Source: a virus
Strand: one strand, 5' to 3'
Length of the DNA: 23,545 nucleotides
Virus record (IMG/VR): IMGVR_UViG_3300032050_000831
Location: 1-23,545 of that record
Shown here: piece after piece, positions 2,067 to 22,569 of the stretch
Position numbering within the stretch: the stretch's first letter is position 1
How the letters are laid out: every line of letters begins with the position of its first letter
Notes under the pieces: generated by a model
What the model was told of the DNA's origin: nothing
The model's input: the letters and a program-made list of their open reading frames with translations, nothing else
Databases searched by the model: none
Translations under genes and position numbers: made by a program

Positions 2067-3280
2067 GAGATTATCAAAAAAGGATAGCGCAACAGACTGC
2101 TGAAAAGGTCAGAGAGTTTGGCTTTTGTTATATTGCCGCGGAGGTGCGTACTGGCAAAACATTAATGGCACTAAAAGCGGCTGAATTATTAGGTAAAAAG
2201 AATGTTTTATTTTTGACTAAAAAGAAAGCCATCAAAAGTATTGAAGATGACTACACTAACTTCGGATTTAGTTATAAAATTAGGGTAATTAATTACGAAA
2301 GCATACACAAAATTAGGGATAACTTTGACCTAATAATATGTGATGAGGCACATACTTTAGGTGCTTTTCCAAAACCAAGTTTACGCGTTTCACAACTTCG
2401 TAATTTTTATTATGAAACGGATAAGATACTTTTAAGTGGCACACCGCATCCCGAAAGTTATAGTCAGATATTTCATCAATTTTTTGTTTGCCAAAAAAAT
2501 CCATTTGTTGGAATGAACTTTTACCAGTGGGCAAAAATCTATGTTAACATTAAGCAAAAGCAATTTGGCTATGGTATCGTAAATGATTATAGCGAAGTTT
2601 ATGAATCTAAATTATTTCCGAAAATTGATGATTATTTTATTAGATGGTCACAAAAAAGTAGTGGATTTGTCACTGAAATTACAGAGGAAGTCCTTTATGT
2701 AAAAATGAACAGTGATGTATATAATATTGCTGATGAATTAGAAGCTAATAAAGTTATTCAATTACCTGATGGGGATGTATTGGCTGATACTGGTGTTAAA
2801 TTAATGGGTAAATTACATCAGCTTTATTCAGGTACTATTTTAACTGAAGATAATCAAGGAATAATAATAGATACTACTAAAGCTGAATTTATAAAAAAAC
2901 ATTTTGAGGGTAAAAAAATCGGCATTTTTTATAAGTTTAGGACAGAATTAGTAATGTTATATAAGGTCTTTGGAAGAGCGTTAACAGAGGATTTACATGA
3001 GTTTGACACTACCGATAAGATTATAGCATTACAAATGGTAAGTGGACGCGAGGGTATTAGTTTGAAAAATGCTGAATATTTAGTGTTTATGAATATTGAT
3101 TTTTCAGCAGTTACCTACTTTCAAGCACGTGATAGGATGACAACCAATGTCAGGACTTTTAACAAAATATTTTGGATATTTGCAATTAATGGTATTGAGC
3201 ATAAAATTTACAATGCCGTAAAAAATAAAAAAAATTATACGTTGCGACTTTTCAAAAAAGATTATGTACTTTCTCTATAA
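2057..3280 (+). CDS. SF2 DEAD/DEAH-box helicase
   Basis: A 407-residue superfamily 2 helicase, ATP-dependent, acting on phage DNA during replication or recombination. Visible motifs in order: Q-like N-terminus with LRDYQ (residues 3-7), Walker A EVRTGKT (29-35), DEAH (96-99), motif III LLSGTP (125-130), motif V-like SGREGISL (329-336) and motif VI QARDR (356-360). The length is near the minimum for a two-RecA-domain SNF2/ERCC3-like phage helicase, with no extra nuclease domain. ATG at 2057 overlaps the preceding helicase gene by 10 bases, so the two are translationally linked. The 3' end overlaps the following endonuclease by 17 bases. Confidence 0.92.
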   Translation: MELRDYQKRIAQQTAEKVREFGFCYIAAEVRTGKTLMALKAAELLGKKNVLFLTKKKAIKSIEDDYTNFGFSYKIRVINYESIHKIRDNFDLIICDEAHTLGAFPKPSLRVSQLRNFYYETDKILLSGTPHPESYSQIFHQFFVCQKNPFVGMNFYQWAKIYVNIKQKQFGYGIVNDYSEVYESKLFPKIDDYFIRWSQKSSGFVTEITEEVLYVKMNSDVYNIADELEANKVIQLPDGDVLADTGVKLMGKLHQLYSGTILTEDNQGIIIDTTKAEFIKKHFEGKKIGIFYKFRTELVMLYKVFGRALTEDLHEFDTTDKIIALQMVSGREGISLKNAEYLVFMNIDFSAVTYFQARDRMTTNVRTFNKIFWIFAINGIEHKIYNAVKNKKNYTLRLFKKDYVLSL

Positions 3281-3914
3281 ACACTATTATGACAATAAAG
3301 TTTTCTATGTAGGCATTGGCAAATGCAGAAAAAATAACGGCATTAGTAAATATCACCGAGCATACGATGAAAGCAAAAGAAGTGTAGCGTGGAAAGAAAT
3401 GGCAAAGGATGGATTTCGTTTTGAAATAGTGGAGGAGAGTGAAGATAGAAAGCATATCATGGAGCGCGAAAAATACTGGATAAAACATTATGGTCGGCGC
3501 ATCGATGGTGGTAAGTTGGTAAACATATTACCAGGCGGCAATTTAGTTTTGGAAGATCCTATTAAAAAGCGCAATCGAATGATTGGTAATAAAAATAGGT
3601 TAGGTAAAAAGTTTAGTGAAAAGTCAATTGCACTTATTAGTTATAAATCTAAAGGCAATAAAAACGCAATTGGTTATCGTAGTTATGCAGCTAAATTGAA
3701 ATATAGTTTCGCTAAATTAGGTAATACATATGCAAAAGGTAAGTTTGGTAATAAAAGTGGTAAGTTGCTAAATGTTGAAACTGGGCTTATCTTTGACAAT
3801 ATTCATGAGATTAATGACTTCTTTTTTAATGGTTCTGTAAAAACTTTCCTAACTTTGAAAACCTACATTGCAAAAGGTGTAACGTTTAAAGGATTAACAT
3901 TTTATCGCGTATGA
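3264..3914 (+). CDS. GIY-YIG (homing-type) endonuclease
   Basis: A 216-residue free-standing endonuclease. The N-terminus has the GIY-YIG fold signature in variant form: YFLYKHY (2-8), a short spacer, then FYVGIGK (14-20), followed by a basic stretch with HRAY (31-34), EREKYWIKHYG (67-77; a Glu here is the expected metal ligand) and NILPGGN (87-93), a common end of this domain. Residues ~95-150 are Lys/Asn/Gly-rich with GKKFSEKSIALISYKSKGNK, resembling NUMOD3-type DNA-binding repeats of homing endonucleases. The family cuts DNA at a cognate site and spreads its own gene. It starts inside the 3' end of the helicase gene and ends 4 bases into the tail fibre gene, so it is inserted without breaking either. 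A non-mobile repair nuclease is the less likely alternative. Confidence 0.85.
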   Translation: MYFLYKHYYDNKVFYVGIGKCRKNNGISKYHRAYDESKRSVAWKEMAKDGFRFEIVEESEDRKHIMEREKYWIKHYGRRIDGGKLVNILPGGNLVLEDPIKKRNRMIGNKNRLGKKFSEKSIALISYKSKGNKNAIGYRSYAAKLKYSFAKLGNTYAKGKFGNKSGKLLNVETGLIFDNIHEINDFFFNGSVKTFLTLKTYIAKGVTFKGLTFYRV

Positions 3915-6075: not shown

Positions 6076-6328
6076 GAGTGTATATCAAAAGAAAGTAATT
6101 GCCAAATATGAAAAGGATGGGTACTATGTTATTAAATTGGCTAAAACGAATAAGAACGGCATACCTGACTTATTGTGCATCAAACCGAGTGAGGTATTAT
6201 TTGTGGAGGTCAAGAACGAGAAAGGGAGGTTGAGTGAATTGCAGAAGTACCGCATTAAAGAATTAGAAACAAACGGATTTAAAGTTATTGTAGATAAATA
6301 TGAAATGGACAATCATTCATCCAAGTAG
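6068..6328 (+). CDS. VRR-NUC domain nuclease
   Basis: An 86-residue single-domain protein of the PD-(D/E)XK superfamily, VRR-NUC family. Catalytic signature: D34 in GIPDLL, then E47-x-K49 in FVEVKNEKG, then a conserved Gln in SELQKY (Q59). These are the metal-binding and active-site residues of the family, which includes virus-type replication and repair nucleases such as FAN1's catalytic domain. Phage stand-alone versions are usually 80-120 residues, so it looks complete. The only start giving the whole domain is GTG at 6068, overlapping the basic protein by 8 bases. Its 3' end overlaps the next gene by 29 bases. The likely job is cutting branched or flap DNA during replication or packaging. 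It lies away from the helicases, among tail and sugar genes. Confidence 0.85.
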   Translation: MLESVYQKKVIAKYEKDGYYVIKLAKTNKNGIPDLLCIKPSEVLFVEVKNEKGRLSELQKYRIKELETNGFKVIVDKYEMDNHSSK

Positions 6329-6947
6329 AGGTCGATGCCAAAAAGCATTTGAAGCAGCAGAGAGTTGCATTAATAACTTCGATAGTAGTGTAGATACACT
6401 TGAGTACATTGTGAGTATTGATAGTGACGATGCAGAACAAACGTGTTATGCGCAATGGTGCGTGCCATCAGGAATTACTTTGATCATTAACAATAACCGT
6501 TCATTAGTCGATGCGTGCAACAATGCGGCAAAGATTGCCAGTGGTGATTGCTTCCTTGTTTTATCGGATGACTTCCTAACACCGCGTCACTGGAACGAAC
6601 TACTTAAGCTTAAGATTGACCGCGATATGTATGGCATCCTGGTTAATGATGGTATAAGTGATGGTGACATTATGAGTTTGCCTATCATGAGCAAAAGCTT
6701 ATACGAGCGCATAGGTTACATCTACCATCCCGAATTCTTTAGTCTGTTTGCTGACAATGCTCTGTTGGATGTGGTTAAGAAGTTAGATTGCCTAATTGAT
6801 TGCAGACATCTATTGTTTGAGCATATGCATTACATTGTAGGTAAAGCACCTAAAGATGCAACTTATGAGCGCGAGAATAGTCACTATGCATACACCAATG
6901 GTAAGATGATTTACGATAAACTAAAGAAGCGCGGTTATGACCTCTAA
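6300..6947 (+). CDS. Glycosyltransferase, GT-A / family 2-like
   Basis: A 215-residue protein with the layout of a GT-A sugar transferase. The start MKWTIIHPSRGR is the typical first beta strand and loop. IVSIDSDD (37-44) is the nucleotide-contacting strand. LVDACNNAAKIASGDCFLVLSDDF (69-92) is the helix and strand leading to the metal-binding DXD equivalent, here SDD at 89-91. An acidic ADNALLDVVKK (151-161) is a candidate for the catalytic base region. No membrane segment is visible, so it should be cytoplasmic and use a nucleotide-sugar donor. It overlaps the nuclease by 29 bases and the next transferase by 11. The acceptor cannot be told from sequence. It could be virion protein, phage DNA or a host glycan. 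Confidence 0.75.
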   Translation: MKWTIIHPSRGRCQKAFEAAESCINNFDSSVDTLEYIVSIDSDDAEQTCYAQWCVPSGITLIINNNRSLVDACNNAAKIASGDCFLVLSDDFLTPRHWNELLKLKIDRDMYGILVNDGISDGDIMSLPIMSKSLYERIGYIYHPEFFSLFADNALLDVVKKLDCLIDCRHLLFEHMHYIVGKAPKDATYERENSHYAYTNGKMIYDKLKKRGYDL

Positions 6948-7503
6948 AAAGTATTTGACCATTCTCATACCTACACTTAAGAAGCGTGGCTTTTACCTTG
7001 AGCGGTTAATGAAGTGCTTGAATGCGCAAGATCAAACGCACGTGGAGATTATTAGTTGCGTTAATGAAGGTAACGTAAACATAGGTAAGATTAGAAACCT
7101 AATGCTTAAGCAAGTCCAAACACCTTACTGTGTCTTTATTGATGACGATGACCTGGTAGCAGACACATACATAAGCGACCACATAGAGATGATAAGCATG
7201 GGCGTGGATGTGATAGGATTTAAAGGTTTGATTTATACTGATGGTCGCAATCCGATTGAGTTCGTTCATAAGCATGGTCAGACTTATGAAACGGCAAAGC
7301 AAGGCAAGTACCCGATTTACCATCGCCCGATAATGCACATTAACGCCATACGAACCGAGATAGCATTAAAGGTTGGTTATCCTGAAAAGACATTTGGTGA
7401 GGACAAAGATTATGGTTTGAAGTTAGCTAATAGCGGTTTGGTTACCAGTGCTGGCTTTATTGATAAGGTTGAGTATTATTACTATTATAGAACAAAAAAA
7501 TAA
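6937..7503 (+). CDS. Family 2 glycosyltransferase (short GT-A)
   Basis: A 188-residue GT-A transferase: YLTILIPTLKKR (6-17) at the N-terminus, NIGKIRNLML (48-57) contacting the nucleotide, CVFIDDDD (65-72) as the metal-binding DXD motif, and FGEDKDYGLKL (153-163) matching the ED base motif of family 2. It is shorter than typical family 2 enzymes (around 250-300) because it stops soon after the core, at a Tyr-rich tail. It has no transmembrane helix. It overlaps the previous gene by 11 bases and shares one base with the next (TAATG), so the three sugar genes are co-translated. Enzyme class is clear; donor and acceptor are unknown. Confidence 0.87.
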   Translation: MTSKKYLTILIPTLKKRGFYLERLMKCLNAQDQTHVEIISCVNEGNVNIGKIRNLMLKQVQTPYCVFIDDDDLVADTYISDHIEMISMGVDVIGFKGLIYTDGRNPIEFVHKHGQTYETAKQGKYPIYHRPIMHINAIRTEIALKVGYPEKTFGEDKDYGLKLANSGLVTSAGFIDKVEYYYYYRTKK

Positions 7504-8081
7504 TGTATAGTCAAAATAACGAAGAGCAAATAATCCTAAACTATTTAGGTGATAGCACTGGTCACTTCTTGGACATTGGTGCTTTTGATGGAATAACTTT
7601 TAGCAACACTTACGAGTTAGTTAAGCGCGGATGGACTGGTGTAATGGTTGAGGCATCACCACGAACATTTATAAAGTTGCAAGAAAATGTGGAGGAGTAT
7701 AAAAATAAATTAACTTTGGTTAATGCGTGCATTGTTACAGATGACCAAAAGTTGGTTGACTTTTACGATAACATCCAAGCGACTGCAACGCATAACTTAC
7801 CGAATGTAGAGAAATGGAAAAAGCAAACACCATTTGATATGATAGCAGTAATGACTTGTCATCATAAGACCTTACTTGAAAAGGTTGGACATATGTACGA
7901 TTTTGTGAATATTGATGTGGAAGGTAGTTCGACTGATTTGTTCATGTGCCTTTATGATGAACTACCTGATGTTAAGATATGGTGCGTTGAGCATGATGGT
8001 AACGATAAAGCAATAATTGAGAAGGCGAAAGGATGTAAGGTGTTATTGCGTAATGGTGAGAATTTAATATTAGCTAAATAA
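7503..8081 (+). CDS. FkbM-type SAM-dependent methyltransferase
   Basis: A 192-residue class I methyltransferase. SAM-binding motif I is FLDIGAFDGITFSNT (22-36), the acidic end of strand 2 is GVMVEASP (46-53), and FVNIDVEGSS (134-143) is the motif characteristic of the FkbM family, which O-methylates sugars or polyketides. The N-terminal MYSQNNEEQIILNYL is also typical of the family. It follows two glycosyltransferases with a one-base overlap, so methyl capping of the sugar they transfer is the natural reading. The stop lies 8 bases before the small terminase start. Family firm; substrate inferred. Confidence 0.88.
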   Translation: MYSQNNEEQIILNYLGDSTGHFLDIGAFDGITFSNTYELVKRGWTGVMVEASPRTFIKLQENVEEYKNKLTLVNACIVTDDQKLVDFYDNIQATATHNLPNVEKWKKQTPFDMIAVMTCHHKTLLEKVGHMYDFVNIDVEGSSTDLFMCLYDELPDVKIWCVEHDGNDKAIIEKAKGCKVLLRNGENLILAK

Positions 8082-10260: not shown

Positions 10261-10617
10261 ATGCCAAATTTAATTCAAGAAAGAGCTTATAGCAATCTTT
10301 CAATAACATTAAGCACTATCAATAAACAATATTTTGAATTAGAATATGATGTTTATTATAATTATAATACTGACGATGATACCTACACTGGTACTGATTT
10401 CGTGCAAATAATAATACCAATATCAAACATTAATGCGCAATTAGTGCAATGTAAAGATGAAACTGGTCAAGAAATTAATGCATCAATAGTTATTAAAAAT
10501 AATCAAGACACTGTATTAACATTAAATACTAATGAATGGTATGTTGCTTTAGGTCAAATGCAAACTTCATTTTTTGATGATTTAATACAAGATATTTATT
10601 CAGTATCATTCGCATGA
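10261..10617 (+). CDS. Conserved-looking hypothetical protein, tail region
   Basis: A 118-residue acidic protein, not recognised. It contains an alternating pattern suggestive of beta strands (LSITLSTINKQYFELEYDVYY) and an Asp/Thr-rich turn DTDDDTYTGTD-like region around residues 36-44. It has a single cysteine and no membrane segment. ATG at 10261 follows the previous stop by one base, and its own TGA overlaps the next ATG (ATGA), so it is translated in series with the other tail genes. Small structural or assembly factor by position only. Confidence 0.55.
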   Translation: MPNLIQERAYSNLSITLSTINKQYFELEYDVYYNYNTDDDTYTGTDFVQIIIPISNINAQLVQCKDETGQEINASIVIKNNQDTVLTLNTNEWYVALGQMQTSFFDDLIQDIYSVSFA

Positions 10618-10895
10618 TAGAAGCATTAATTATAAATAGTTTTATCTGTATTGGTTTTAACATCGCAACTGAACCAGGCATGATATTAAACTGGATAGAG
10701 AAGTTACTTGAAGATAAACCGCTATGGTTGCAAAAACCGATTTACCTATGTCCAGTGTGCATGGCATCAGTTCATTCATTGTGGGTATTCCCTACATTAG
10801 ATTTGCCGTGGCATTATTGGTTTGGTTATACACTTGCACTATGCGGGATTAATGCGTTAACTTATGGATTTGTTAGCAGTATTAGAGAAAATTAG
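10614..10895 (+). CDS. Small membrane protein with CPVC motif
   Basis: A 93-residue protein with three hydrophobic stretches: about 4-18 (ALIINSFICIGFNIA), 50-60 and 68-87 (YWFGYTLALCGINALTYGF). Between the first two lies KPIYLCPVCMASVHS, with C46 and C49 and a nearby His54; this could bind metal or be redox-active at the membrane. There is no cleavable signal peptide. The gene overlaps the previous stop as ATGA and extends 32 bases into the next gene. A holin-like role is possible from size and hydrophobicity but nothing lysis-related is next to it, so I do not assign one. Confidence 0.65.
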   Translation: MIEALIINSFICIGFNIATEPGMILNWIEKLLEDKPLWLQKPIYLCPVCMASVHSLWVFPTLDLPWHYWFGYTLALCGINALTYGFVSSIREN

Positions 10896-11115
10896 AACTG
10901 ATTTAACTGGTTACCTGATTGAACAAGGTTTTGAATTTGTAGGGAGGTGTAATTGTTCAGCGTGTTATCAGGATAAATACAAACGCGATAACATCTTAAT
11001 AAAGGTTTGTCGCAACAGAGCGGAGTTTACATTGATGAAAAACAAGCATATCTACGAGATAGCTAAATTAGATAAGTTACACGAAGCAATAGAAAGTTAT
11101 GGAAAAAGTAATTAA
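10864..11115 (+). CDS. Small four-cysteine protein
   Basis: An 83-residue cytoplasmic protein, unrecognised. The centre holds GRCNCSACYQDKY and IKVCRN: cysteines at 29, 31, 34 and 49, enough for one zinc site. Flanks are helical and charged (LLAVLEKIRTDL at the start, IAKLDKLHEAIES at the end). ATG at 10864 overlaps the membrane protein gene by 32 bases, and the 3' end overlaps the chaperone gene by 17. A later start would remove the first helix, so I keep 10864. Position just before the tail chaperone suggests a tail assembly helper, but there is no direct evidence. Confidence 0.6.
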   Translation: MDLLAVLEKIRTDLTGYLIEQGFEFVGRCNCSACYQDKYKRDNILIKVCRNRAEFTLMKNKHIYEIAKLDKLHEAIESYGKSN

Positions 11116-11698
11116 TTGGCAATTACACGAAGGTCACACAATAGTTCCAGCATTCACTGTTGGAGGTGTGCAGTATTATGGTTTGCAAGATAGTTTCAAC
11201 ACATTTACCGAGCGCGGATTTCAAGCGTTAGCGGTATATGATGAATGGAATAATCGAATGACTAACGACCATTTAAAAGCATTTGTGGAGGTGATGTATG
11301 AGTGGATGTCGGGCAAGAATGGTCAGATAGATATTATGAAGGTTGGAGAGTTGGTGATAATGATTAAAGAGCGTTTGAACTGGATAGTTCCGACCGCAGA
11401 GTTACTTTATAAGATGGCTGGTGTTGCTTTTTTTGATGAACATGAGAGTCCTTATGTGTATGATGCAAAGTATGCTGAAAAGAAGATTAAATTTTGGAAA
11501 GACAATGTCGACCAACCAGAGGTTTTTTTTTGCAGTGTACCAATTGCTTTAAGGCACATATATCCCTTACCTCATATATCAGCAACCGATTTAGAGAAAT
11601 GTCTAAAACAGATCAGCGAAACGGAAAGGAAACAATTGTTGAAAGTTACTGGTTGGACATCCAACGAAATCTTGAAAACAATTTTGTCACTGGAGTAA
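11099..11698 (+). CDS. Putative tail assembly chaperone (G-like)
   Basis: A 199-residue mostly helical protein sitting immediately upstream of the tape measure gene, where siphophage tail assembly chaperones (lambda G and GT) are found. It has no membrane or catalytic motif; the middle is helical (VMYEWMSGKNGQIDIMKVGE). At codons 141-144 it has nine T residues, read GTT TTT TTT T, containing the canonical -1 slippery heptamer T-TTT-TTT in the correct phase. After it the zero frame continues for 55 codons (CSVPIALRHIYPLP to TILSLE). The chaperone would coat the tape measure and recruit tail tube protein. Family inferred from position, size and slippery site; no sequence family recognised. Confidence 0.6.
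   Translation: MEKVINWQLHEGHTIVPAFTVGGVQYYGLQDSFNTFTERGFQALAVYDEWNNRMTNDHLKAFVEVMYEWMSGKNGQIDIMKVGELVIMIKERLNWIVPTAELLYKMAGVAFFDEHESPYVYDAKYAEKKIKFWKDNVDQPEVFFCSVPIALRHIYPLPHISATDLEKCLKQISETERKQLLKVTGWTSNEILKTILSLE
11524..11530 (+). other. Candidate -1 ribosomal slippery heptamer TTTTTTT
   Basis: Bases 11524-11530 read T TTT TTT in the frame of the 11099 gene, within a run of nine T (11523-11531). This fits X-XXY-YYZ for -1 slippage. The -1 frame from 11530 is open to 11790 and ends 8 bases inside the tape measure gene, as in lambda-like GT fusions. A weak downstream stem is possible (11535-11541 with 11553-11559, one mismatch, 11-base loop), starting four bases after the slip site. No strong pseudoknot is apparent. 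Confidence 0.55.
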
Positions 11699-11790
11699 AA
11701 GTTGGTAAGCGGTATGGTGTAAATTATCGGAAGCTTACCTTAATCGAGTACCTTTTATTAGTAGAAGATATGTATAAAGAAAATGGCTGA
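11530..11790 (+). CDS. -1 frame extension of the tail assembly chaperone (T-like)
   Basis: This is the -1 frame region downstream of the slippery run. It adds 86 codons, giving a predicted fusion of 144 + 86 = 230 residues. Its last part, KVGKRYGVNYRKLTLIEYLL (about 11697-11756) and VEDMYKENG, looks like genuine helical protein and fills the 84 bases between the end of the zero-frame gene (11698) and the tape measure start (11783), which would otherwise be the only sizeable empty gap in this packed operon. An alternative is independent initiation at ATG 11599, giving 63 residues (starts MSKTDQRNG). A homopolymer sequencing error is the third possibility, since one extra T would join the two frames. 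Confidence 0.5.
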   Translation: MQCTNCFKAHISLTSYISNRFREMSKTDQRNGKETIVESYWLDIQRNLENNFVTGVKVGKRYGVNYRKLTLIEYLLLVEDMYKENG

Positions 11791-14314
11791 TAAAATAGTA
11801 ATTGAAGTTGTCGGTAATACCGCTGGTTTAAAAAGCTTAACCGATGAATTTAATAAGACCGCTAAAGCATCTGATAATTTAACTGATAGTTTAAATGATA
11901 ATGTAGATGCTAATAAAAAAGCTGAAGTAGAATTTAAGAATTTAAGACAACAAATTAAAGAAGCCAAAAATGAAGCGCAAGCAATGGCTGAAAAGTTTGG
12001 TGCAAGTTCTAAAGAGGCAACCACTGCTGCACAAAGAGTAGCAAATTTAAATGATGATTTAGAAGACTTCAATAACCGCGTTAAAGCTTTAAATCCTGAA
12101 GCAAAGTTTAATGCATTAAACAATGTGTTGGGGAATACATTAGGCGCATTTCAAGGTGTAGTTGGTGCGGTTCAATTGTTTGGTGGTGAGAGTAAGAAGG
12201 CGCAAGAAATAGCACAAAAGATGCAAGGTGCTTTGAACTTTGCTCAAGGTGTGAATAGTGTCTTATCAATGAAGGATTCTTTCAAAGATTTAGCGGCGGT
12301 TTTAGGACTTGCACGAACGGCACAAGCTACCGCAGCAGTATCTACCAGTGCATTAGCAGTAGCAGAAACTGAAGCGACAGTTGCAACATTAGGTTTTAAT
12401 GCGGCATTGCTTGCTAATCCAGTAGTATGGATAGTGGCTGCATTAGCGGCTGGTGCTGCGGCTTTTAAATTGTATGCTGATAGTGAGGCGGAAGCGGAAA
12501 AGAATGCCGAAAAATTAAAGACAACTCAAGAAGAGTTAAAAGATATAATTGATAAAGTCAACAATAGTATTTATAATGCAATTGATGCAAGTGATGAATA
12601 CAATGTAATGATAGGTAAAATGTCCCAAGGTCAAGCGGACATAAATAAGAATGCGAGAGAAGCTGGTAAATCTATTGAGGATTATCAAAAAGCAATTGCA
12701 AAAGCTTTAGCTGACAATAAACCAATTGAAGAGGCATTAAGCAAAAAACAAGCGATATTAGATAAGGATCTTCAGAAAGCTAAAGAGTATTCTGAAAGGT
12801 ATGGTCAGACTGAAAAGCAAAAGAATGATAGATTAAAAGTTATTAATGATAAATTTTTAGCTGATAATAAAAGTTTAATTGACCAAAAAGCGGCTAACGA
12901 TAAGATACTTGAGGCAAGTGCAATTGGTGTTAGTGCCGTTACTGAAAGTCAGCAATTAAAAGATAATATCGCTCGAGAAAAACAAAGGCAAGCGGATATA
13001 CGAGATTCAAAACAAGCGGCTGATAGAAGAGCATCTGACCGAGCAAAGGAGAAAGCGGAAGCTGAAAAAGCATTTCAGGAAGAGTTCACTCTTAAAAAGT
13101 TAAAGCAAAAGAATGAAGTTGACGAAGCTAAATCATCTGAAGAGAAATTAAAACTTCAACAACAATTTGCAAAAGAGAATTATGAATATGAGAAGGCACA
13201 TTTGGAAGAGAGTGGTGCAACTGCAAATCAATTAAAGATACTTTGGGAAAATTACTATGGAGTTAAATTAGGTTTAAATGCTCAAGAAGAGAAAGCAAAC
13301 CAAGATAAACTTAAAAAGGAATTAGACGAAGAGCAAAAGTTAATTGATGCAAAGATTGCTTTACGTTTAAAACAAGAAGCTGATCCAGTTAAGCAAGCGC
13401 AAATTGAAATGGATGCGTTGGATGACAAGTATGCAAAGATATTAGCTGATGAAACGCTTTCTTTAACTGAACGTGAAAGGATAAATACTGAATATCAAAC
13501 GGCACAATTAACTATAACTGATAAGGTAACCAAGGCGGTTGTAGATGCTGAAAAGGAAAAGCAAGATGCTCAAGATAAAACCGCAGAAAATGCGCAGAAA
13601 AATGCAGAGAAAAGATTAGCTACTGAATTAGCTATTAAGGATGCAATTGTTGGGGCGGTTGGTAATTTTGCAGACATCGGATTAGACATTACAAAGCAAC
13701 AATTAAATGCTGAAGAGCAACTATTAAAAGAGCAAAAGGATAAAGGTCTAATTTCTGAAGAGCAATATCAAAAGAAGTTAAACGAAATTAAGCATAGAGC
13801 GGATGTTGCCGATAAACAAGCGGCTATTTTCAAAGCTACACTTGACTTTGCATCAGCTTTAATTAACGCATTAAATGCACCTACTACTGCAATCCCAGCG
13901 GTACTTGCATTAACTACTGCGGTGGCTGGTGCTAACCTTGCAAAGATTATCGCAACACCTTTACCAAAGTATCAAAAAGGTACTTTATCAGTACCAGGTG
14001 TGGACATGGGAAGAGATAGTGTAATGGCAATGCTACAACCAGGTGAGGCGGTTATTCCAACTGCAATAAACAAGAAATACGCCCCTACAATACGTGCAAT
14101 CTACGAACAAAAGATAAGTGCATCTGACATTAATTCGTTCGTTAGAGGCAAGAAAAACGGCACTAATGGCGACCTTGTAGCAACAGTTGACACGTATGCT
14201 TTGAGTAGAGCAATGAGTAAGAATAGAAATGTGACGGTAGAGAATGCTCAAACAATAGGTAAAGTGATAGCAAATGAAATCGGTAGTCGCCTAAATAATC
14301 GTTATATCATATGA
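11783..14314 (+). CDS. Tail tape measure protein
   Basis: An 843-residue, alpha-helical, Ala/Lys/Glu/Gln-rich protein. Long coiled-coil stretches cover ~30-110 and ~235-660, interrupted by hydrophobic segments at ~205-230 (ANPVVWIVAALAAGAAAF) and ~690-725 (SALINALNAPTTAIPAVLAL), which in this family may insert in the membrane during DNA entry. The C-terminus has the motif MAMLQPGEAVIP near 747-758, found in many tape measure proteins. The protein sets tail length and is extruded at infection. Its length suggests a tail of about 125 nm if alpha helical throughout. Start overlaps the chaperone extension by 8 bases; the stop overlaps the next start (ATGA). Confidence 0.92.
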   Translation: MADKIVIEVVGNTAGLKSLTDEFNKTAKASDNLTDSLNDNVDANKKAEVEFKNLRQQIKEAKNEAQAMAEKFGASSKEATTAAQRVANLNDDLEDFNNRVKALNPEAKFNALNNVLGNTLGAFQGVVGAVQLFGGESKKAQEIAQKMQGALNFAQGVNSVLSMKDSFKDLAAVLGLARTAQATAAVSTSALAVAETEATVATLGFNAALLANPVVWIVAALAAGAAAFKLYADSEAEAEKNAEKLKTTQEELKDIIDKVNNSIYNAIDASDEYNVMIGKMSQGQADINKNAREAGKSIEDYQKAIAKALADNKPIEEALSKKQAILDKDLQKAKEYSERYGQTEKQKNDRLKVINDKFLADNKSLIDQKAANDKILEASAIGVSAVTESQQLKDNIAREKQRQADIRDSKQAADRRASDRAKEKAEAEKAFQEEFTLKKLKQKNEVDEAKSSEEKLKLQQQFAKENYEYEKAHLEESGATANQLKILWENYYGVKLGLNAQEEKANQDKLKKELDEEQKLIDAKIALRLKQEADPVKQAQIEMDALDDKYAKILADETLSLTERERINTEYQTAQLTITDKVTKAVVDAEKEKQDAQDKTAENAQKNAEKRLATELAIKDAIVGAVGNFADIGLDITKQQLNAEEQLLKEQKDKGLISEEQYQKKLNEIKHRADVADKQAAIFKATLDFASALINALNAPTTAIPAVLALTTAVAGANLAKIIATPLPKYQKGTLSVPGVDMGRDSVMAMLQPGEAVIPTAINKKYAPTIRAIYEQKISASDINSFVRGKKNGTNGDLVATVDTYALSRAMSKNRNVTVENAQTIGKVIANEIGSRLNNRYII

Positions 14315-22515: not shown

Positions 22516-22535
22516 CCACAAATCAGTTGAAAATT

Positions 22536-22569
22536 GAGATAGGTACTTGTTACTTATCTCTTTTTTTTT
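22536..22569 (+). terminator. Rho-independent terminator after the scaffold gene
   Basis: GAGATAGGTA (22536-22545) pairs with TACTTATCTC (22551-22560) as a 10-bp stem with one G-T pair and a five-base loop CTTGT (22546-22550). Nine T follow (22561-22569). This is an intrinsic terminator that would end, or partly end, the long upstream operon 47 bases past the scaffold stop. Confidence 0.82.

Follow-up and report, generated by a model that had tools for sequence, protein, structure and literature searches.

This locus raises the question of whether the gene preceding a phage tape-measure gene encodes one protein or two, i.e., whether a run of nine T's within it is a programmed site for shifting decoding into the -1 frame. 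Frameshifting in tail assembly chaperone genes is widely conserved among tailed phages, where the usual picture is that of a short gene whose product receives an extension near its end. Chaperones of the lambda G/GT type comprise two products, which occur in a fixed ratio in vivo, are absent from virions and bind both the tape-measure and the major tail protein. Here, we investigate a candidate of this kind in a stretch of 23,545 nt from IMG/VR record IMGVR_UViG_3300032050_000831, in the following referred to as the window, together with its relatives.

The nine-T run is located at 11523-11531 (+ strand) inside an ORF of 199 codons (11099-11698, +). The tape-measure gene that follows (11783-14314, +, 843 aa) matches phrog_167, tail length tape measure, with an E-value of 6.6e-11. 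Across the run, the 0 frame reads GTT TTT TTT TGC, such that the heptamer T_TTT_TTT at 11524-11530 fits the phase of the X_XXY_YYZ pattern. In the -1 frame, an open stretch extends from 11491 to 11790, its last 8 nt lying within the tape-measure ORF. Given these frames, the predicted unslipped product comprises 199 residues, while a -1 slip would yield 144 + 86 = 230 residues. That is, residues 1-144 would be common to both products, residues 145-199 form the tail of the short form (including HIYPLPHISATDLEK) and the alternative -1 tail of the long form is encoded by 86 codons plus stop at 11530-11790 (+; including LTLIEYLLLVEDMYK). The stretch read in both frames amounts to 165 nt (11531-11695, +) plus the stop codon. 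The original prediction had named a correctly phased T-TTT-TTT in a 199-codon gene, a -1 frame open to 8 bases inside the tape-measure gene, a slip at codon 144 of 199 with 168 bases read twice, and products of 199 and 230 residues, all of which agree with the frames. It had furthermore likened the locus to lambda G/GT with an unusually early slip; the layout is as it described, and the comparison of relatives given below supports recoding.

The window is A+T-rich and a T9 is by itself unremarkable in it. When the 199-codon gene is recoded synonymously, T9 arises in 29% of the trials, and a second T9 is present within the window at 22561, which rules out considering the run significant on its own. 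Both observations imply that the run alone proves nothing; it is conservation that settles the question. Synonymous recoding leaves the -1 frame open across the overlap only rarely (P 0.0055). The second T9 comes after a hairpin, GAGATAGGTACTTGTTACTTATCTC, and hairpin and run (region 22516-22569) probably form an intrinsic terminator.

Relatives were collected from IMG/VR in widening circles: close relatives, loci about 38% identical, loci syntenic via an upstream small membrane protein, and hits of a profile built from distant members, which added 75 more IMG/VR relatives. The 87 loci examined correspond to 40 lineages at 90% identity, 30 at 70% and 17 at 50%. One of them, L001, is 100% identical to the window, probably represents its own contig and was excluded as an independent member. 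No match for the gene was found in the phage-record collection, PHROGs, Pfam or genome contigs. The membrane-like protein used for synteny (10614-10895) carries a CPxCMAS motif and is encoded two genes before the putative chaperone; its synteny is family-wide, which makes it a usable marker. Between the two lies a gene for another small protein (10864-11115) with a Cys motif, GRCNCSAC, that resembles ESCGCNG in L036 and GYCNCAM in L054.

The original prediction had proposed to compare related phages for the run and both frames. A run of T7 to T10 is found at the site in all 87 loci, i.e., in 30 lineages below 70% identity whose members range from 27 to 58% GC, and none of the loci keeps the upstream frame without the run. 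Counted by lineage (n=30), the run is T9 in 25, T8 in three and T7 in two, besides one T10 in L134; the heptamer is in phase also in the T7 and T8 members. Its distance to the 0-frame stop is 165 nt in the window and ranges from 120 to 270 nt over the family. Both Phe codons of the site are TTT in every lineage (60/60 lineage-level codons), compared with a mean of 59% TTT and 41% TTC for the other Phe codons of the same genes. The log10 P-value for this all-TTT usage is about -14.5 when lineages are treated as independent. At the sequence level, the run is conserved as DNA. For clades at 41-47% GC, there is no other T run of at least 7 within about 7.5 kb. Relative to the window, the run of L007 is displaced by one base in the 3' direction, which alters the encoded residues (SFFF versus VFFC in the window) but keeps nine T's. 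The window gene contains another in-phase T7 at 11428-11434, which leads to immediate stops and is absent from L002-L006, and extra X_XXY_YYZ matches seen in some members are not conserved among the family loci.

Three loci deserve a closer description. L136 is truncated by the contig end, yet T9 and the open -1 frame are present. In L135, also with T9, both the 0 and the -1 frame are open from the run to the start of the tape-measure gene (2929-3208); here the double coding of about 270 nt is complete, with 240 aa for the 0 frame and about 239 aa for the -1 product. The run of L134 is T10 (2875-2884; f0 ORF 2426-3178), such that the DNA directly encodes the long form as an ORF of 250 aa and the short tail is intact and conserved in the shifted frame. 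The original prediction had seen in a tenth T the sign of a single fused gene; T10 occurs in 1 of the 87 loci, and this locus retains both tail frames. This T10 is either a sequencing error or a natural reversal of the default product. Judged by its record number (IMG/VR record 2881677958), L134 is probably a prophage in an isolate genome. We dropped the idea that T10 is avoided and the run length hence tuned: with Phe as the third residue, adding another T would usually produce a -1 stop.

To see which frame is constrained where, we counted substitutions between pairs of relatives by 0-frame codon position (first, second, third). Between the window and L007, the counts are 24, 6 and 68 before the run (68/98 at the third position), 12, 15 and 14, i.e., evenly spread, in the overlap, and 3, 17 and 6 after the 0-frame stop (11699-11782 in the window), where 17/26 fall on 0-frame position 2, which is the third position of the -1 frame. 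The overlap phases of this pair differ from those of the 0-frame region with P 0.0002 and from those of the -1 region with P 0.026 (Fisher). An independent pair from a second clade, L016/L017, shows 24, 16 and 65 before the run (65/105 at the third position), 10, 10 and 15 in the overlap, and 0, 13 and 5 after the stop (13/18 at the -1 third position). The same pattern is observed for the GC-rich pair L070/L071, with 14, 13, 42 before, 6, 5, 9 within and 4, 22, 10 after the overlap. In addition, the dS of the 0 frame drops in the overlap from 0.77 to 0.38 for the window and L002 and from 1.85 to 0.63 for the window and L007. As a further assessment, the protein of one frame was held while its codons were redrawn synonymously, and the likeness of the other frame's tail was scored over 2000 recodings. 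For six pairs of relatives, each tail is more alike than this null in both directions, with 0/2000 recodings matching; for three more distant pairs the 0-frame tail agrees, the -1 tail less strongly. Taken together, substitution phases, dN/dS and recoding nulls indicate that the 0 frame is coding before the run, the -1 frame is coding after the 0-frame stop, and both are constrained in between.

This has to be weighed against two readings that need no shift between two functional tails. Only one tail might be functional, with the other open frame being incidental or vestigial. L036, L038 and L044 would fit, as given their -1 protein the 0 frame is open by chance with P 0.4-0.6, but with both tails exceeding the recoding nulls in six pairs and with overlap phases (window versus L007) unlike the single-frame regions on either side, we consider it very unlikely. 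The second reading concerns how the -1 frame is entered. L016, L017 and L021 have no ATG, GTG or TTG before codon 75 of the -1 tail and L054 has none in the whole tail, so that in these members only a shift gives access to the tail. Moreover, it is from the run onwards that the -1 frame is conserved. A distinct overlapping gene that starts internally, e.g., at the ATG that the window, L002, L004 and L007 share at -1 codon 23 post-slip, is at odds with both observations, would assign no role to the invariant in-phase T run and deserves next to no credence.

The putative role as tail assembly chaperone is suggested by position and layout: the next gene encodes the tape-measure protein, the second frame ends at its start, and the same holds for nearly all relatives, with L054 as the exception. 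In L054 (reverse complement, 11995 onwards), small structural-looking ORFs follow the -1 tail and not directly the tape-measure gene. In L049 (3397-4497; same contig as L112), the -1 tail continues stop-free and in frame into the tape-measure protein; a slip there would yield a fusion of the chaperone with the tape-measure protein. Further upstream in the window, before the terminase gene, we observe a homing endonuclease match (PHROG), two glycosyltransferases and a methyltransferase-like gene at 3264-3914 and 6300-8081.

Tail chaperone families are very divergent, and the PHROG and Pfam searches gave no sequence match to known ones. An AF2 model of the short form based on 15 diverse members reached a pLDDT of 81; an earlier one from a shallow alignment (A3) had a pLDDT of 49 and was discarded. 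Foldseek of the short-form model against the PDB returned nothing significant, i.e., no match below E 1.8, and its best BFVD match (E 0.01, TM 0.34) is an unnamed viral protein. The HK97 tail assembly chaperone 2ob9 aligns (VIA) to model residues 10-153 with Z 3.1 over 83 residues and an rmsd of 4.2, at rank 17 among unrelated helical proteins. This likeness is suggestive but within noise, and the protein is not identified by its modelled structure. We rejected weak BFVD hits in Bacteroidota phages, which, judged by length, are probably genes located away from the tape-measure gene; weak tblastn hits in MT837862 and OR846721 do not match the layout and were attributed to chance.

Given the conservation of the run and of both tails, this putative tail assembly chaperone gene very probably contains a site for programmed -1 recoding and encodes two conserved tails that exclude one another. 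Most decoding events would cross U9 in frame and yield the short form of 199 residues. A minority would slip back one base on U_UUU_UUU and yield the 230-residue long form, which would share residues 1-144 and then continue with a different tail of 86 residues. The long form would not simply be the short form extended; instead, each product would have a tail that excludes the other. By analogy to lambda gpG/gpGT, the two forms may act together, in a fixed ratio, by coating the tape-measure protein and recruiting the major tail protein. The sequences themselves demonstrate the site, its two frames, their conservation and double coding and, for several members, that the -1 tail is not entered from an internal start; we infer the slippage itself, its ribosomal nature, the ratio of long to short form and the chaperone role.

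As to who slips, we favour the ribosome over RNA polymerase, with some reservation, because two deep lineages keep exactly the in-phase heptamer, namely the T7 members L047 and L070/L071 (57-58% GC), and because the known tail chaperone frameshifts are ribosomal (PMC5009743). No stimulatory hairpin or pseudoknot was found up- or downstream of the site (z between -1.6 and +1.7), nor a shared Shine-Dalgarno-like element near the run. AGAGG beside the run was dismissed as a stimulatory element, since it is restricted to clade I. Programmed transcriptional slippage, in which RNA polymerase would stutter on the nine T's such that some U10 transcripts fuse the N-terminus to the -1 tail, is a strong though somewhat less probable alternative. 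In bacteria, stretches of 9 A/T provoke efficient RNA polymerase slippage (PMC5009743), conserved A9 (sometimes A8) runs mark IS elements that use it (PMC1088944), and Shigella mxiE joins two ORFs via nucleotide insertion at a U run with an efficiency of 20-30% (PMC4256274). The dominance of T9 and the lack of a visible stimulatory RNA structure point the same way, and the T10 of L134 with both tail frames conserved would suit slippage by insertion and deletion. On the other hand, polymerase slippage should be weak in the two lineages with T7 and the three with T8, and a homopolymer error in sequencing may account for the T10. That T9 outnumbers T7 does not decide the matter, because the amino acids of two frames at once (Leu/Phe in the 0 frame, Phe in the -1 frame) also constrain bases 8 and 9 and because one more T would in many cases introduce a -1 stop. 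Ribosomal -1 slippage by itself predicts neither the fixation of T9 nor the T10 of L134 with both frames intact. A family in which polymerase slippage on a tuned nine-T run sets the chaperone ratio, with both exclusive tails required, appears unlikely to us. Finally, replication slippage in the T run could toggle the phage between a T9 allele making only the short form and a T10 allele making only the long one; the T10 with its fused ORF in L134 might be taken as an example. Such a contingency locus is extremely unlikely: T10 is confined to this one locus of 87, the T9, T8 and T7 alleles leave the same frame open by default, and other tail chaperones require the two products simultaneously (PMC5009743).

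The preferred reading, a programmed -1 recoding site, would extend tail chaperone recoding to a family absent from PHROGs, Pfam and the phage-record collection searched. The family is a large one of uncharacterised tailed phages, so far known almost only from metagenomes. In its members, two alternative tails share a long double-coding stretch and the shift site lies far from the 0-frame stop, and predictors trained on short overlaps will miss such sites. Its natural T7, T8, T9 and T10 variants provide material for testing ribosomal versus transcriptional slippage on one gene.

For comparison with known systems, we applied one script to lambda, P2 and Flavobacterium phage 11b as controls, and all three sites were recovered. 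The distance from the heptamer to the end of the first ORF is 25 nt for lambda and 28 nt for both P2 and phage 11b. In the literature, the mean distance is 26 nt for 2,476 annotated SEA-PHAGES genes and 36 nt for the Xu set; PRFect was trained at a mean distance of 26 nt and, in a set of other viruses, found only 2 of 43 genomes beyond 51 nt (PMC10885494). The novelty of the distance in our family is judged against these three phages and the published means, and we do not claim it to be unprecedented.

The frameshift of lambda G/GT (Levin 1993; Xu 2004/2013/2014, reviewed in PMC5009743) likewise resides in a gene directly before the tape-measure gene and uses an in-phase slippery heptamer. According to the annotated coordinates, the -1 frame of both lambda and P2 ends 8 nt inside the tape-measure gene, as in the window. 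In contrast, the slip in the window would take place 165 nt ahead of the 0-frame stop (25 nt in lambda), on a T run instead of GGGAAAG, both alternative tails are conserved, and there is no detectable sequence similarity. P2 E/E+E' (T_TTT_TTG) shares the T-rich heptamer, the -1 shift and the place before the tape-measure gene, but its heptamer lies 28 nt before the E stop, compared with 120-270 nt in this family. In Flavobacterium phage 11b, the gene before the presumed tape-measure gene, whose role is predicted, contains an in-phase A7 run with a -1 ORF ending at a long ORF; here the overlap is only 28 nt and the run consists of A rather than T. Outside tail chaperones, conserved homopolymers (A/T runs of about 8-10) join overlapping frames with no evident stimulatory structure in Shigella mxiE, Thermus dnaX and IS elements, although the T7 members of our family are shorter than the runs described there. 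That is, frameshifting in tail chaperone genes is itself already known, and it is the long double-coded alternative tails that set this family apart.
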